From Flavobacteriaceae bacterium (lineage in GTDB: Bacteria; Bacteroidota; Bacteroidia; Flavobacteriales; Flavobacteriaceae): a stretch of DNA of 33,466 nt. The notes under the pieces were generated by a model. The model ran no database searches and was not told where the DNA came from. It saw nothing but the letters and a program-made list of their open reading frames with translations. The position numbers were made by a program, and so were the translations under genes. The stretch is taken from positions 1 to 33,466 of the forward strand of contig JALQVG010000087.1 of assembly GCA_023260435.1 (NCBI GenBank). Direction: 5' to 3'. Positions 28,878 to 33,466 of the stretch are shown here, piece after piece (positions within the stretch are counted from its first letter, which is position 1; each line of letters begins with the position of its first letter).

Positions 28878-29114
28878 TCAGGATTGCAAGCTCTTTTTTT
28901 TCGATAACTTTAACTGTCTGTAGACGGCAAAAAAGACAGCCCCCACCAACAAATAGGGAATGGCCATCAGATAAACTATCCCGTCATTGATGCCTTTGGC
29001 CATAGAATTATCCGCTTCACTTTCCAGTACTGCCCGACACATAGCGCACTGAGCATCGACACTCTGGGTAGTAAAAACCAAGATGATCAAGCCGAAAATT
29101 AAACGATTTTTCAT
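28878..29114 (-). CDS. small membrane protein with CAMCR motif, function unknown
   Basis: A 78-residue protein. A signal peptide (about 1-22) leads directly to CAMC (23-26, a CxxC), then a conserved acidic stretch ESEADN, the INDGIVYLM segment and one transmembrane helix (about 47-65) with a basic tail. I recall similar short proteins next to DUF420 genes in flavobacterial oxidase clusters, but no function is established. It is the last gene of the assembly block; its ATG overlaps the DUF420 stop (ATGA). A periplasmic CxxC next to a SCO gene suggests a role in copper or thiol handling; this is inference. A longer frame to 29198 lies inside the DUF420 gene and is not credible. Confidence 0.75.
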   Translation of the reverse strand: MKNRLIFGLIILVFTTQSVDAQCAMCRAVLESEADNSMAKGINDGIVYLMAIPYLLVGAVFFAVYRQLKLSKKKSLQS

Positions 29115-29638
29115 GCGTAGTAAGGAGCGATCATTAAATACACGACAACTCCGGTAACCGCCACATATAACCATACGGGAAAAGTGTATCTCGCCCACTT
29201 TTTGTGCGCTTCAAAATCTCTGAGATAAGTCTTAGAATAGGTCACCAAGACTAGGGGAATCACAGCAATAGAGAGCAATATGTGGCTGATTAAAATAAAA
29301 TAGTAGGTGGCCTTAACCCAACCAATGCCCCCAAAAGGAGTTGGATCTGAGGTCATGTGATAGGCGATATACATCACTAAAAATAGCAATGAAAGAACAA
29401 TAGCTGTGGTCATCAGACGTTCATGCAGCACCCTTTTTCCTTGTTTGATCGCCCAAACAGCCACGACCAAAACTAAAGCCGTTATCGCGTTAATGCCCGC
29501 ATAAATAGGTGGCAGAAACGATAAAGGAGCTACATTGGGGATACGCACCATAAACAATATAGCCACCACTACTGGAATAGCCACAGAAGTGACCGCGATC
29601 AACGCTTTGATACTTTTCGAATTTAATGGTTGTTCCAT
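29111..29638 (-). CDS. DUF420 family membrane protein (oxidase-associated)
   Basis: A 175-residue protein with five hydrophobic segments (about 12-30, 42-62, 78-96, 108-130, 150-170). It has conserved histidines in VLHERLMTT, AYHMTSD, ISHILLS and the AHKKWARYTFPVWLYVAVTGVV block. This is the DUF420/YozB family, which in Bacillus and Staphylococcus is linked to haem-copper oxidase assembly (CtaM). It overlaps the SCO stop by 16 bases and the next gene's start by 4. The position in the oxidase locus supports a cofactor-assembly role. Confidence 0.85.
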   Translation of the reverse strand: MEQPLNSKSIKALIAVTSVAIPVVVAILFMVRIPNVAPLSFLPPIYAGINAITALVLVVAVWAIKQGKRVLHERLMTTAIVLSLLFLVMYIAYHMTSDPTPFGGIGWVKATYYFILISHILLSIAVIPLVLVTYSKTYLRDFEAHKKWARYTFPVWLYVAVTGVVVYLMIAPYYA

Positions 29639-30357
29639 GGATTTTCTTTAAGAAGTTTTTTGATGTCTTGAATTAACGGAATTAGTTGGGAGGTTTCCCC
29701 AAATTCATCAACCGGTGCATCTTCGGTGATAAATCCCCTGTAATAGATTATAGGATTCCCAAAATCATCGTTGCGAGAACGCAAATATCCTTGAGCATCC
29801 ACCAAGGCAAATAAGCCTGCGTGTTCAAATCCACCAGGAGCTCCAGGCAACTGAGCCGCAAAGATGTTAAACCCCTCATTGGCCAATTGATAAACCTCCG
29901 CTTGAGGGCCATTGAGGAAATGCCAATCCGTGTCCGTAACTCCATAGCGTTCAGCATAGCCTTTTAACACCTCAGGTGTATCGTTCTCAGGGTCGATCGA
30001 TATGGAAACAATAGAGACCGGTTCATCTCCGAAGGTGTCGTGGACTGTTTTGAGGTTGGTGCTCATCACTGGACATATCGTGGGACAGGAGGTAAAAAAA
30101 AAGTCAATGACATAAACACGACCCAACAGATCTTGATCAGTGATCAACAAACTATCTTGGTTGTAAAAAGCAAAGGGAGGCACCTTTCTTTTCGTTCCAT
30201 TCAGCTCGATATACGACAGCGGTGTTCTGGCCAATAAATCCTCTTGCTCCACACCTCCATCGGTAGCTAACCTCGCTGATATCAGCGGAATAAATATCCA
30301 GGCAAAGGCAGCAACTAACAAGAGTAAAATCCAATAAGCCGGTTTGATTTTTTTCAT
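29623..30357 (-). CDS. SCO1/SenC/PrrC copper chaperone for cytochrome oxidase
   Basis: A 244-residue thioredoxin-fold protein anchored by an N-terminal helix (about 8-27), with its domain in the periplasm. It carries the copper-binding CPTICP (Cys91, Cys95) and the third ligand His179 in FEHAGLF. The core strands are VYVIDFFFTS and VSISIDPEND. SCO proteins deliver copper to the CuA site of oxidase subunit II. It begins right after the stop of the SCO-like gene (adjacent codons) and overlaps the DUF420 gene. Confidence 0.95.
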   Translation of the reverse strand: MKKIKPAYWILLLLVAAFAWIFIPLISARLATDGGVEQEDLLARTPLSYIELNGTKRKVPPFAFYNQDSLLITDQDLLGRVYVIDFFFTSCPTICPVMSTNLKTVHDTFGDEPVSIVSISIDPENDTPEVLKGYAERYGVTDTDWHFLNGPQAEVYQLANEGFNIFAAQLPGAPGGFEHAGLFALVDAQGYLRSRNDDFGNPIIYYRGFITEDAPVDEFGETSQLIPLIQDIKKLLKENPWNNH

Positions 30358-30978
30358 TTATCTACCGTTGTTCTTTTTAAGGGCCATGCGGTACTCCGCG
30401 AGCAGGATTTTCACATCATCTACCATGTACTTGCTCAAATCGGCTACTGAGGTTGCGTCGTATCGCGGGAAAGGGTATTCTGAGTCATCGGAGGTTCGCC
30501 CGCGAACTAATTGATCCTTATCGATAATAAACACATAATTTGACCCGCCATCAGCATTTAGTTGATCCGTGGGGCTTAGAGATACAAACACTTCCTGAAC
30601 TTGATCTTTTGTGGCGGGAAGGAAATACCAATGGCTTAAATCAACGAGCTCACCTAATTGATGCCTGAGCTCATCCACAACAGATTGTTCTGAAGGGTCA
30701 AAATACAACACCACTTGAAAATCCTTAAACTCGTGGAATCGCTTGTAAATCTTTTCATTCAGATTGGAAGAGAACGCCTTTTTTAAAGCGACTTGGCTCC
30801 CTAAAAACCCCAGAATAGTGATTTTGTTGTGCAGTTCGATTCCAGGAGCTTGAATCGGCTTAGGATTCACTACGGGTAAACGACCAAAATTGTTGATTCC
30901 AGAAGCAAAAAAAAGATAAGCCACCAGTGGAATGACAAAAAGTACAAATAGAACGAAACGCTTTTGAAATTGCTGCAT
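30358..30978 (-). CDS. cysteine-less SCO-like (thioredoxin-fold) membrane-anchored protein
   Basis: A 206-residue protein with an N-terminal transmembrane helix (about 8-26) and a soluble domain. By eye it follows the SCO neighbour strand by strand. KITILGFLGS stands where the SCO has VYVIDFFFTS, and FQVVLYFDPSEQ where it has SIVSISIDPEND. HWYFLPATKDQV matches WHFLNGPQAEV, YVFIIDKDQLVRGR matches FALVDAQGYLRSR, and both end in a DVKILL/DIKKLL helix. It contains no cysteine at all, and the SCO copper-ligand His is missing, so it cannot bind copper the SCO way. It precedes the SCO gene with no gap. Function unknown; the SCO kinship is my inference. Confidence 0.7.
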   Translation of the reverse strand: MQQFQKRFVLFVLFVIPLVAYLFFASGINNFGRLPVVNPKPIQAPGIELHNKITILGFLGSQVALKKAFSSNLNEKIYKRFHEFKDFQVVLYFDPSEQSVVDELRHQLGELVDLSHWYFLPATKDQVQEVFVSLSPTDQLNADGGSNYVFIIDKDQLVRGRTSDDSEYPFPRYDATSVADLSKYMVDDVKILLAEYRMALKKNNGR

Positions 30979-31032: not shown

Positions 31033-31416
31033 TTAAAAATTCCATTTTATAAACCCATTGGCATAGGTTTCGTAGACGTAATTTCCCTCAATCAATAATA
31101 AGGTAGTCAGGTAGGCGATCAAAAAGACTGCAGTCCAAACAACAGATCTTCTCAAACCAGTTTTTTCATCGCGTAAGTGCATAAAGTCCCAAGCGATGTA
31201 ATAGGCTTTCACTAAGGTTAAACCGATAAATATCCAGTTTAATAGCCTCATGCCCAATAAAGGGGTCTTTACCAAAAATTCAGGTTTAGTAATACCTAAC
31301 GCAACTTCTACGGCGGTAATTAAACTCAAGAAGATAAGGACACCCCAAATCTTTTGAACGTTGTTCTTGAAAGTAACCGCTCCGCGGAAAATCGATAGTT
31401 TATGTTCGTGTGCCAT
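31033..31416 (-). CDS. cytochrome c oxidase subunit IV family protein
   Basis: A 127-residue membrane protein of the bacterial COX4 family with three hydrophobic helices (about 22-42, 58-76, 90-112). It has a Bacteroidota-type start HEHKLSIFRG and the AYYIAWDFMHLRDE loop. It is a small structural subunit of an aa3/caa3-type haem-copper oxidase. It lies 17 bp after the second subunit III gene and ends before a terminator. Confidence 0.9.
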   Translation of the reverse strand: MAHEHKLSIFRGAVTFKNNVQKIWGVLIFLSLITAVEVALGITKPEFLVKTPLLGMRLLNWIFIGLTLVKAYYIAWDFMHLRDEKTGLRRSVVWTAVFLIAYLTTLLLIEGNYVYETYANGFIKWNF

Positions 31417-31433: not shown

Positions 31434-32408
31434 TTATACCAAGTAAAAGAAGGTGAATACAAATACCCAAACTAGATCTACAAAGTGCCAGTACAGACCT
31501 ACTTTTTCCACCATTTCGTAATGCTTTCTCTTTTCATAAGTACCCAAAAGCACATTAAAGAAAATAATTACATTGATGACCACCCCAGAAAAGACGTGGA
31601 AACCGTGGAACCCTGTAATAAAGAAAAAGAAATCGGCAAATAGACGGTGACCGTACTCATTGCGGATCAGATTAGCACCTTCAACTACGTGGAGTCCACC
31701 AGCTAACGCCTCGATGGAGGCATTTCTATCCAATATTGTTTTTGCTCCAGCCTCGTTGATAGTCTCTGTACGCACTAACACATTTTCGTGTGCGGCAAGT
31801 CCAGCTTGAACATCAGCAACTGTATAGCTAGGTAAAGCATCTTCATCTACAAACCATACACCGTTCTTGTTTAAATGCTGGGTGCGATCGGTTTCAGCTG
31901 CCGTAACAAAATCGTGAAGCGCTATTTGATGGCCAGTTTCCGCATCGACAAACTGTAGGATTCTACCTCCTTTGGTCTCAACAGCTCCGTATTCGCCTTT
32001 GATAAAAGTAGCCCATTCCCAGGCTTGAGAGCCCACGAAGATGGCTCCACCAACAATGGTAAGCAGCATATATAATGCCACTTTGGACTTTCGCAGATGA
32101 TGACCAGCATCAACAGCTAAAACCATAGTAACCGATGACATGATCAAAATAAAGGTCATGAAAGCGACGTAGTACATCGGGTAGTTGCCATGAAAAAATG
32201 GAACGTGGGTGAATACCTGATCTGCAATCGGCCAAATTTCAATAAACTTGAATCTGGAAAATCCGTAAGAAACCAAAAATGCAGAAAAAGTAAGCGCATC
32301 GGAAAGGATGAAAAACCACATCATCATTTTCCCATAACTCGCGTTAAGAGGTTCATTTCCGCCGCCCCAAACTTTAGCAGGTTGGTGATTAGCTACCGCT
32401 GTCTCCAT
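31434..32408 (-). CDS. ctaE: cytochrome c oxidase subunit III with inserted domain
   Basis: A 324-residue subunit III. The transmembrane bundle is recognised from WGGGNEP...KMMMWFFILSDALTFSAF, FVGSQAWEW, FFITGFHGFHVFSGV and the C-terminal VGLYWHFVDLVWVFVF. Between the helices ending near 140 and starting near 255 there is a ~110-residue hydrophilic insertion (LQFVDAETGHQIALHDF onwards) that standard subunit III lacks. I recall the same insertion in Flavobacterium, so it looks like a clade trait. Subunit III supports proton uptake and stability of subunit I. A neighbouring gene encodes a second, shorter subunit III. Confidence 0.92.
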   Translation of the reverse strand: METAVANHQPAKVWGGGNEPLNASYGKMMMWFFILSDALTFSAFLVSYGFSRFKFIEIWPIADQVFTHVPFFHGNYPMYYVAFMTFILIMSSVTMVLAVDAGHHLRKSKVALYMLLTIVGGAIFVGSQAWEWATFIKGEYGAVETKGGRILQFVDAETGHQIALHDFVTAAETDRTQHLNKNGVWFVDEDALPSYTVADVQAGLAAHENVLVRTETINEAGAKTILDRNASIEALAGGLHVVEGANLIRNEYGHRLFADFFFFITGFHGFHVFSGVVINVIIFFNVLLGTYEKRKHYEMVEKVGLYWHFVDLVWVFVFTFFYLV

Positions 32409-32473: not shown

Positions 32474-33055
32474 TTAAAAAAAATAAAAAAACAAAAGCAA
32501 GTACAACCACAGAATATCTACAAAATGCCAAAAGGTAACACCTAGCTCAAAACCAAGCGTATTAGTTGGCGTGTAACGACCTTTAAGGTGTTGAATCAGG
32601 ACTACCGCCAGAGATATCCAACCAGCAGCCAAGTGCACTAAGTGTACCGCGGCAATCAAGTAAACAAATGAAATCGTGACATTGCTGGTCGGACCAGTAA
32701 GGTAATAACCCATGCCAATCAACTGATTAAACCCGACAAATTGTAGGTACGCAAAAACTACACCCAACATCAAAGTTCCCAACAACATCCAGGTTACAGA
32801 CTTGCCTTGACCTGAAAGCAACTGTTTTTTGGCCAGGATGAGCAATGCGCTGCTCAACATAATGACTGCAGCTGAATACCAAAATGCCGAGGGGATTTCA
32901 AAGCTTTCTAACCAATCTTTGCGGTTACTACTGACCACAAATGCGGATGTCCATCCAGCAAATCCCATCACCATACTGATGATCCCAAACCAGAGCATCA
33001 TTTTTTTGGCCCTAATCTGTTTTTCCATTAATTCAGTGTCTTGACTCATATCCAT
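32474..33055 (-). CDS. haem-copper oxidase subunit III, short paralogue
   Basis: A 193-residue protein with five hydrophobic segments and the subunit III landmarks: KKMMLWFGIISMVMGFAGWTSA at the start, LQFVGFNQL, AAVHLVHLAAGW and VTFWHFVDILWLYLLLFFYFF at the end. The last stretch carries the conserved Trp-His-Phe-x-Asp. It lacks the insertion of the neighbouring subunit III. The start is either 33055 (MDMSQ) or 33049 (MSQ, which overlaps the cyoE stop as ATGA). Both imply coupling to cyoE; I keep 33055 because related proteins start MEMT-like. Confidence 0.9.
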   Translation of the reverse strand: MDMSQDTELMEKQIRAKKMMLWFGIISMVMGFAGWTSAFVVSSNRKDWLESFEIPSAFWYSAAVIMLSSALLILAKKQLLSGQGKSVTWMLLGTLMLGVVFAYLQFVGFNQLIGMGYYLTGPTSNVTISFVYLIAAVHLVHLAAGWISLAVVLIQHLKGRYTPTNTLGFELGVTFWHFVDILWLYLLLFFYFF

Positions 33056-33466
33056 CGATCTAAAACATAAATTACTTGTACAGCAGAAATATAAAAAACA
33101 CTAGCCAACATCAATTTTTTGGCTGAGGCGGTGCTTCGGTCAAGAAATAATTGAACCCCATAATAACCCATAACCAATCCAAGGGAGGTAATCACCACCG
33201 CAGCATAAACAGACAACGATAGGGTTCCCGTAACACCAAAAACGGGTATGATGGCCACTAACAGCATCCAAATAATGTAGATTAAAATTAGTGCAGCCGA
33301 CGTGGTATCCTTTTTTCTAGTAGGTAATAAGGCAAATCCTCCTCGTTGATAATCTTCATCCAACATCCAAGCCAATGCCCAGAAATGAGGAAACTGCCAA
33401 AAGAATTGAACCATAAACAAGGTGCCTGGTTCTATACCAAATGAATTAGTAGCTGCCACCCAACCC
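33046..33466 (-). CDS. cyoE: protoheme IX farnesyltransferase (haem O synthase), C-terminal part
   Basis: The enzyme attaches a farnesyl chain to haem B to give haem O, the precursor of haem A for the oxidase encoded downstream. Only the last ~140 residues are in the window; the frame stays open to base 33466 and the gene continues beyond it. Recognisable parts are GWVAATNSFG at the edge, the second Asp-rich region FWQFPHFWALAWMLDEDYQRGG, then LPTRKKDTT and three C-terminal helices. The GTG at 33457-33459 is an internal Val, not a start. Its stop overlaps the subunit III start. Confidence 0.93.
   Translation of the reverse strand, partial: GWVAATNSFGIEPGTLFMVQFFWQFPHFWALAWMLDEDYQRGGFALLPTRKKDTTSAALILIYIIWMLLVAIIPVFGVTGTLSLSVYAAVVITSLGLVMGYYGVQLFLDRSTASAKKLMLASVFYISAVQVIYVLDRWI

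Follow-up and report, generated by a model that had tools for sequence, protein, structure and literature searches.

SCO proteins are required for building the CuA site, but what do they do beyond copper and thiol chemistry? This question can be addressed at a locus where a SCO-like gene without a single cysteine codon lies directly before a canonical SCO gene, inside a cytochrome oxidase operon. The locus belongs to a 33,466-nucleotide stretch of DNA from a Flavobacteriaceae bacterium, hereafter the window, and all its features given below are on the minus strand.

The locus and its cysteine-less SCO paralogue

The cysteine-less SCO paralogue (30358-30978, hereafter the Cys-less ORF) has an ATG start and encodes 206 amino acids, none of them cysteine. 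Right after its stop codon comes the ATG of the gene at 29623-30357, a canonical SCO1/SenC protein (PF02630, E 6.9e-28) with the copper/thiol motif CPTIC (30073-30087, from sequence and alignment), the His ligand and a short C-terminal helix in its model. Directly upstream of the Cys-less ORF we found COX4_pro, the cytochrome oxidase subunit IV (31033-31416; PF03626, E 5.4e-15), the second COX3-type subunit III (31434-32408; PF00510, E 1.5e-9), the first one (32474-33055; PF00510, E 3.5e-12) and a ctaB-like gene that is cut by the window end (33046-33465); this is the conserved first gene of the locus, and ctaB is the name that we presume for it. On the other side, the SCO gene is followed by a DUF420 membrane protein of the CtaM family, linked to oxidase assembly (29111-29638; PF04238, E 1.1e-43), and by a conserved neighbour encoding a small membrane protein with a CAMC motif (28878-29198), recognized by sequence and locus comparison. 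The order ctaB, COX3a, COX3b, COX4, Cys-less ORF, SCO, DUF420, CAMC is recurrent in the fetched loci (a redundant set), with median gaps of 2 nt between the Cys-less ORF and SCO and of 78 nt between COX4 and the Cys-less ORF (148 loci).

The host genome (1.75 Mb, 92% complete) contains a single copy of the Cys-less ORF and a second, unlinked SCO gene on contig C84. By protein match, its named relatives are Flavobacteriaceae assemblies, followed by Maribacter, Croceitalea, Cellulophaga, Euzebyella and Aquimarina. Contig C40 carries an operon of NrfD-type, Fer4 (Fe-S), cytochrome c, COX2 and COX1 domain genes, which we take to be an alternative complex III (ACIII) followed by COX2 and COX1. This COX2 reads LLCNKICGKSHYNM, that is CxxxCxxxHxxM, presumably the pattern of a CuA site; hence, a copper site needing SCO would be present in the host.

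Four parts can be distinguished in the Cys-less ORF. Residues 2-30 (30889-30975) form an N-terminal membrane anchor, a SCO trait, which is a helix in the model and shows conserved columns with the motif KKxxxLxxLFxLPxxxYLFFxSGxxNF. Residues 36-174 (30457-30873) make up a thioredoxin/SCO-like periplasmic domain, according to the model and its structure matches. Within it, at the place of the CxxxC motif, the protein has QVALK (residues 62-66, 30781-30795, from the alignment columns), a sequence without copper ligands in which Q62 and K66 occupy the positions of the SCO cysteines. The distal His ligand is missing from the window protein as well, and the corresponding column in the family holds mostly S, G or A. 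Finally, residues 178-204 (30367-30447) form a long C-terminal helix in the model, with the conserved tail DD..LAEYR.ALKK. There are invariant residues in both the anchor and the tail of the homologues. The initial annotation had described this C-terminal helix as common to both neighbours: a helix is indeed present in both models, but it spans 27 residues in the Cys-less ORF against 14 in the adjacent SCO (residues 225-238), and the AEYRxALKK-type extension conserved in the first family is missing from the second.

Fold and SCO descent

A strand-by-strand likeness between the two neighbours had also been proposed. Pairwise sequence comparison does not carry it, given that BLASTP of the Cys-less ORF against the adjacent SCO was not significant (E 0.86) and that Pfam and NCBIfam gave no family for it even at E<=10, with the PF02630 cut-off not reached. 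Nor did PF02630 appear, at E<=1, among the models listed for 20 homologues of the Cys-less ORF; these showed scattered weak Pfam matches only, such as Redoxin in three of them (best E 0.015). Searching PDB sequences with the protein or its profile gave RPAP3 as the best match (E 0.08), which we took as chance. The likeness is supported instead by structure and by profile-profile comparison. An AlphaFold2 model built from 20 sequences reached a mean pLDDT of 83.9 and a pTM of 0.76, and its first-ranked match was 1on4, Sco1 of B. subtilis, in Foldseek (E 3.9e-5) and 4hde, SCO1/SenC of B. anthracis, in VIA-align (Z 14.3, rmsd 2.6, 147 aligned residues). An unrelated fold is thus excluded. The second match in VIA-align was 1xzo (BsSco, Z 13.0), followed by GPX8 at 12.3 and by other GPX and peroxiredoxins from 12.3 down; with these proteins so close below SCO, the fold alone is no proof of SCO descent.

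Descent is settled by sequence profiles. The profile of the 20 homologues matched the CxxxC-bearing operon SCO of another family (L241) with an E-value of 4e-31. In a profile-profile comparison with 13 CxxxC-bearing operon SCO of other families, the match reached 99.9% and E 4.7e-31, spanning columns 2-216, from anchor to tail; a variant including Cys-less rows from other families gave E 2.9e-32. The comparison with the adjacent SCO's own family was weaker (59%, E 9.1e-5). On these grounds, fold and descent place the Cys-less ORF in the SCO superfamily, and its defining residues suggest that it is not a copper chaperone. With the SCO1/SenC family (PF02630; Sco1, BsSco/YpmQ, SenC) it shares the fold, the single N-terminal anchor, the location in an operon of oxidase genes and the W, D-K and RxR positions, while it differs by lacking CxxxC and the His ligand, by falling below every Pfam threshold and by its long helix with the AEYRxALKK tail.

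To reconstruct the history of the pair, we built a tree of 106 sequences from which the copper-site and tail columns had been taken out, with unlinked type-2 SCO as the outgroup. The 28 rows of the Cys-less ORF came together (29 including L252 of family f43, 97*), as did 27 of the 28 tandem SCO rows (93), and both groups were nested among single operon SCO. The support of 0 at the base of the Cys-less group is due to the intrusion of L252, a Cys-less sequence on a long branch that comes from another family. Branches are long, and the deep order is without resolution. When Cys-less ORF and tandem SCO were constrained to one clade (leaving G181 out), the likelihood was 22.5 units above that of the free quick tree (p-AU 0.753), and this higher likelihood is what would be expected from one tandem duplication. 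An origin of the Cys-less ORF from a non-SCO thioredoxin was rejected on the basis of the tree and of the profile-profile match of E 4.7e-31.

Conservation and reciprocal retention of SCO features

The Cys-less ORF was matched in 189 of the 199 Flavobacteriaceae genomes searched. Among the ten missing genomes, we saw no assembly with the whole locus present and the copy absent: in one (G181) a diverged Cys-less copy occupies the corresponding position; two (G023, G116) have neither a COX2 nor a usable SCO that we could see; another (G128) has a different oxidase locus with one SCO; no COX2 was seen in two more (G140, G146); three assemblies that are 66, 87 and 82% complete (G081, G149 and G151, respectively) gave a COX2 match and no visible COX3b; and in the last one (G170) the contig ends inside COX3b. 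G140, one of the genomes in which no COX2 was seen, has two CPGIC SCO genes separated by about 2.9 kb (L158, 4728-8910). An order-wide search gave a match in 143 of 296 genomes, many of them being the single SCO itself, so this value should not be read as the paralogue's prevalence.

Regarding selection, we compared the window with L002, its nearest clearly distinct relative (82.5% identity), and obtained a dN/dS of 0.044 for the Cys-less ORF and 0.045 for SCO, the dS of the Cys-less ORF being near saturation in this comparison (pN/pS 0.145 vs 0.064). The Cys-less ORF also evolves faster than its neighbours, with a mean distance of 1.14 vs 0.38-0.82. Among 154 distinct CxxxC-less sequences, 103 contain no cysteine at all. 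The Cys-less ORF is nearly universal in Flavobacteriaceae and is under strong purifying selection. A cysteine-free SCO-like protein directly before a canonical SCO, and with it a tandem of active and inactive SCO folds in an oxidase operon, had been noted from the window, and both are borne out.

From the 154 distinct CxxxC-less sequences we kept 150 non-redundant tandem pairs, with COX4 before and a CxxxC-bearing SCO after the first copy. The four dropped were L045 (COX4 not seen), L151 (a mislabelled TlpA-like pair), L170 (a fragment) and L236 (SCO unlinked). Flavobacteriaceae account for 143 of the pairs, and the remaining seven are spread over four further families of the order (f10, f12, f13, f15). 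The comparison set consisted of 33 single SCO genes that follow COX4 in genomes from six families of the order.

Cysteines at both ligand columns were present in 150/150 tandem SCO and in 0/150 Cys-less copies, a value that is partly by construction, since lack of CxxxC was the criterion for calling the first copy; independently of this definition, two consecutive CxxxC copies after COX4 occurred in none of the listed loci. The His ligand was found in 150/150 tandem SCO and in a single Cys-less copy (1/150), and all three ligands were present in every one of the 33 single operon SCO. The tail, whose comparison is free of the labelling circularity affecting the Cys columns, gave the reverse picture: EY at positions +7/+8 of the conserved Asp was found in 143 of 150 Cys-less copies, in none of the 150 tandem SCO and in 25 of 33 single SCO, the motif thus missing in seven and eight members of the first and last set, respectively. 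Median distances from the conserved Asp to the C-terminus were 22 residues in the Cys-less ORF, 8 in tandem SCO and 21 in single SCO. The same was observed for the anchor, with a strict motif in 120/150, 2/150 and 13/33 sequences of the three sets, and a loose one in 138, 34 and 22. Besides, the anchor of the Cys-less ORF aligns with that of the single-SCO profile in the profile-profile alignment, while the match between the tandem and single SCO profiles begins at column 46, past the anchor (E 3.6e-66).

This reciprocal retention, a feature missed by the initial annotation, indicates that the ancestral operon SCO probably carried the copper site, the anchor and the tail. Homologues with an intact CxxxC, which had been anticipated as a sign of mere degradation, do exist in the form of the single operon SCO; what they reveal is a split of features between the two copies. 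In nearly every Flavobacteriaceae genome examined there is one SCO with the copper site only and one with anchor and tail only.

Two single SCO genes located after COX4 in f15 (L119 and L129) have an extra four-cysteine loop before the tail (CTGC...CSGC and CTGC...CSDC), resembling a small metal knuckle.

Copper-site loss elsewhere and a proposed role of the paralogue

Families of the class outside the order have, as a rule, an intact operon SCO (e.g. the copies read in f18, f19, f25 and f31). In f29, all three ligands are lost in 3/3 genomes, with the tail retained as ANY instead of AEY, and the operon SCO of f43 lacks the three ligands and retains the tail in the one genome seen. In f35, which is one genus, we searched 36 genomes and read 30 operon SCO copies. 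Canonical ligands were found in 22 of them, two have one extra residue between the cysteines with the His kept, and six lack between one and three ligands, in various combinations (C-S-Q three times, S-S-Q, N-C-G and C-C-P). The tail was kept in 30/30 copies as [AV]E[YF]. It looks as if copper-site decay were under way in this genus with the tail maintained. A CxxxC-bearing SCO was present elsewhere in 5/5 of the ligand-loss genomes scanned (G488, G528, G535, G567 and G502). The two copies with the extra residue (L316 and L317, from G704 and G775) read CNSVVC and CNSIVC, CxxxxC instead of CxxxC, and this lengthened copper loop is perhaps a step of decay.

Two loci depart from the usual arrangement. 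In G181, a member of the family (L157, 5311-6903), the order is COX4, diverged Cys-less copy, CAMC, SCO, and this SCO groups in the tree outside the tandem SCO, beside one from another family, as if the SCO of the locus had been replaced. In G016 (L236, 3445-5974), the Cys-less copy lies about 1.5 kb from COX4 and away from SCO: it is on the COX3/COX4 contig, and the SCO is on another contig with DUF420 and CAMC.

The explanation that we prefer, and to which we give an even chance, is that two SCO functions were split between the copies, with copper chemistry in one and a copper-independent docking or assembly task on cytochrome aa3 in the other. The SCO of the cytochrome aa3 operon would have performed both, copper/thiol chemistry for CuA via CxxxC and His, and a second task via the N-terminal anchor and the extended C-terminal helix with its AEYRxALKK-type tail. 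Its gene would then have been duplicated in tandem in an ancestor that Flavobacteriaceae share with a few sister lineages in the order. The canonical SCO downstream would have kept the copper site, with a different anchor and without the tail, and the Cys-less ORF upstream would have kept anchor and tail and lost the copper site. We infer that the latter is an assembly or docking factor, which anchor and tail may hold in the membrane beside COX3/COX4 or beside the CuA-subunit intermediate in the assembly of the ACIII-linked aa3 oxidase, where it might present or stabilise the site to which SCO delivers copper. A structural role is the likeliest one, and the tail could serve another end, such as dimerisation or stability. 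The copper site of the operon SCO would be replaceable by another SCO, while anchor and tail at the locus seemingly are not. Extended to the Bacteroidia, the proposal reads that two functions of the operon SCO can be separated, with the thioredoxin core responsible for copper/thiol chemistry and the anchor and AEY tail for copper-independent oxidase docking, that docking is the one retained by the operon, and that both may have been separated by the Flavobacteriales tandem duplication and, at least twice more in other families, by copper-site decay with a backup SCO, one case being mid-decay within a single genus; we judge the chances for and against this generalization to be balanced.

If this is true, the pair would amount to a natural separation-of-function experiment on what SCO proteins do apart from copper, and it provides a function hypothesis for a protein family that had no Pfam or NCBIfam match here. 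The second function would thus be directly testable in Flavobacterium johnsoniae, a harmless and genetically tractable bacterium whose ACIII-aa3 chain has already been taken apart with deletion mutants, in a paper with no mention of Sco in the text accessible to us (PMC8552683). The accessible part of a review of bacterial oxidase assembly factors contains no mention of Bacteroid- or Flavobacter-; it describes CtaM as a membrane protein and an assembly factor of heme A oxidases (PMC9145763). DUF420/CtaM, in the same operon here, would be alike as a membrane assembly factor, and differs in being an unrelated polytopic protein.

The strongest rival to the assembly or docking reading makes the Cys-less ORF an accessory subunit that stays permanently in cytochrome aa3 or in the ACIII-aa3 supercomplex, a SCO fold recruited structurally with anchor and tail as the interface. 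We regard it as unlikely, though ahead of the others. Its gene comes directly after COX4, among subunit genes, as a single copy in the host genome and with a conserved anchor and tail, and G016 keeps it on the COX3/COX4 contig despite the unlinked SCO. The operon also carries assembly factors (SCO, DUF420), however, so the place of the gene fits a subunit and an assembly factor alike. The structure of the F. johnsoniae supercomplex has reportedly been solved. Among PDB sequences, COX3b of the window matched bo3 subunits only and COX4 matched nothing; with no close counterpart of either, absence of the ORF from the solved supercomplex would be uninformative.

An obligate heterodimer of the Cys-less ORF with the adjacent SCO, regulating or positioning it, was the idea put forward in the initial annotation. 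The folds are homologous, the genes are in tandem with a median gap of 2 nt, and dimers have been suggested for human SCO in the accessible text of one article (PMC5877523). Several observations speak against it and make it rather improbable in our estimate: no adjacent SCO was seen beside the Cys-less operon copy in f29, f35 and f43, G016 has the two genes on different contigs, and G181 pairs its ORF with a SCO from outside the tandem group. Rate covariation points no more to SCO than to the oxidase subunits: partial correlations of the Cys-less ORF over 96 loci were 0.20 with COX4, 0.19 with COX3b, 0.16 with DUF420 and 0.15 with SCO, values so weak with every neighbour that they single out no partner. 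The location of the G016 ORF with COX3/COX4, with its SCO elsewhere, leans to the oxidase as the partner.

The remaining functional alternative comes from plants. The initial annotation knew of no described role for such a protein, and for bacteria this stands in the literature searched, where we found no cysteine-less SCO nor a role for one; the Sco genome survey of Banci et al. 2007, outside the search and cited in PMC9145763 and PMC3971200, may mention ligand-free bacterial members. Bizionia argentinensis presumably belongs to the same family as our host. A copper survey of this species, the nearest match in the literature, lists SCO proteins described as keeping CxxxC, and the accessible part names no cysteine-less one (PMC11213822). 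For seed plants the claim fails: as far as the accessible texts go, HCC2 (Arabidopsis SCO2) is a SCO paralogue that has lost the Cys and His ligands beside an active HCC1 (PMC6696091, PMC5877523, PMC3971200), the same ligand loss beside an active paralogue that the 150-pair alignment gives for the Cys-less ORF. According to these sources, HCC2 is mitochondrial, separately encoded and retains other cysteines, while in the Cys-less ORF the loss of the copper site goes with an anchor and a tail that the active copy lacks; presumably, both are of independent origin. In the same papers, as seen in part, HCC2 is dispensable for COX activity, interacts with the metallochaperone module and complements a yeast sco2 mutant, and its function is left open (PMC5877523, PMC3971200, PMC6696091); the 2019 review, in the part accessible to us, considers the complementation of another SCO by a ligand-free one very surprising and leaves the function to further research (PMC6696091). 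Other pairs, namely yeast Sco1/Sco2, human SCO1/SCO2 and Paracoccus ScoA/ScoB, are alike in that two paralogues share CuA work, but the accessible text presents each partner as active towards copper or thiols and mentions no split between copper site and tail (PMC6696091). A redox or stress role outside oxidase assembly, as proposed for HCC2, draws on reports of knockouts that are sensitive to UV-B and normal in COX activity (PMC5877523, PMC3971200, accessible parts). HCC2 is described in these parts as retaining five other cysteines, in contrast to the 103 of 154 distinct sequences here without any, and the Cys-less ORF is strictly linked to COX genes in the operon, so we consider such a role very improbable.

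A functionless, decaying SCO duplicate is scarcely credible: the faster evolution noted above would be in line with it, but the reading of the Cys-less ORF as a degraded pseudogene was rejected on its prevalence (189/199 genomes), its invariant anchor and tail residues and its dN/dS of 0.044, and the frame is open in the window.

The CAMC protein of the locus (28878-29198), conserved in the majority of loci fetched, gave no convincing family in a Pfam scan, and it is possible that it acts as a thiol or copper partner of the operon SCO. Its motif comes after a signal sequence and reads CAMC in 152 of 177 labelled proteins and CSMC in 12 others listed.
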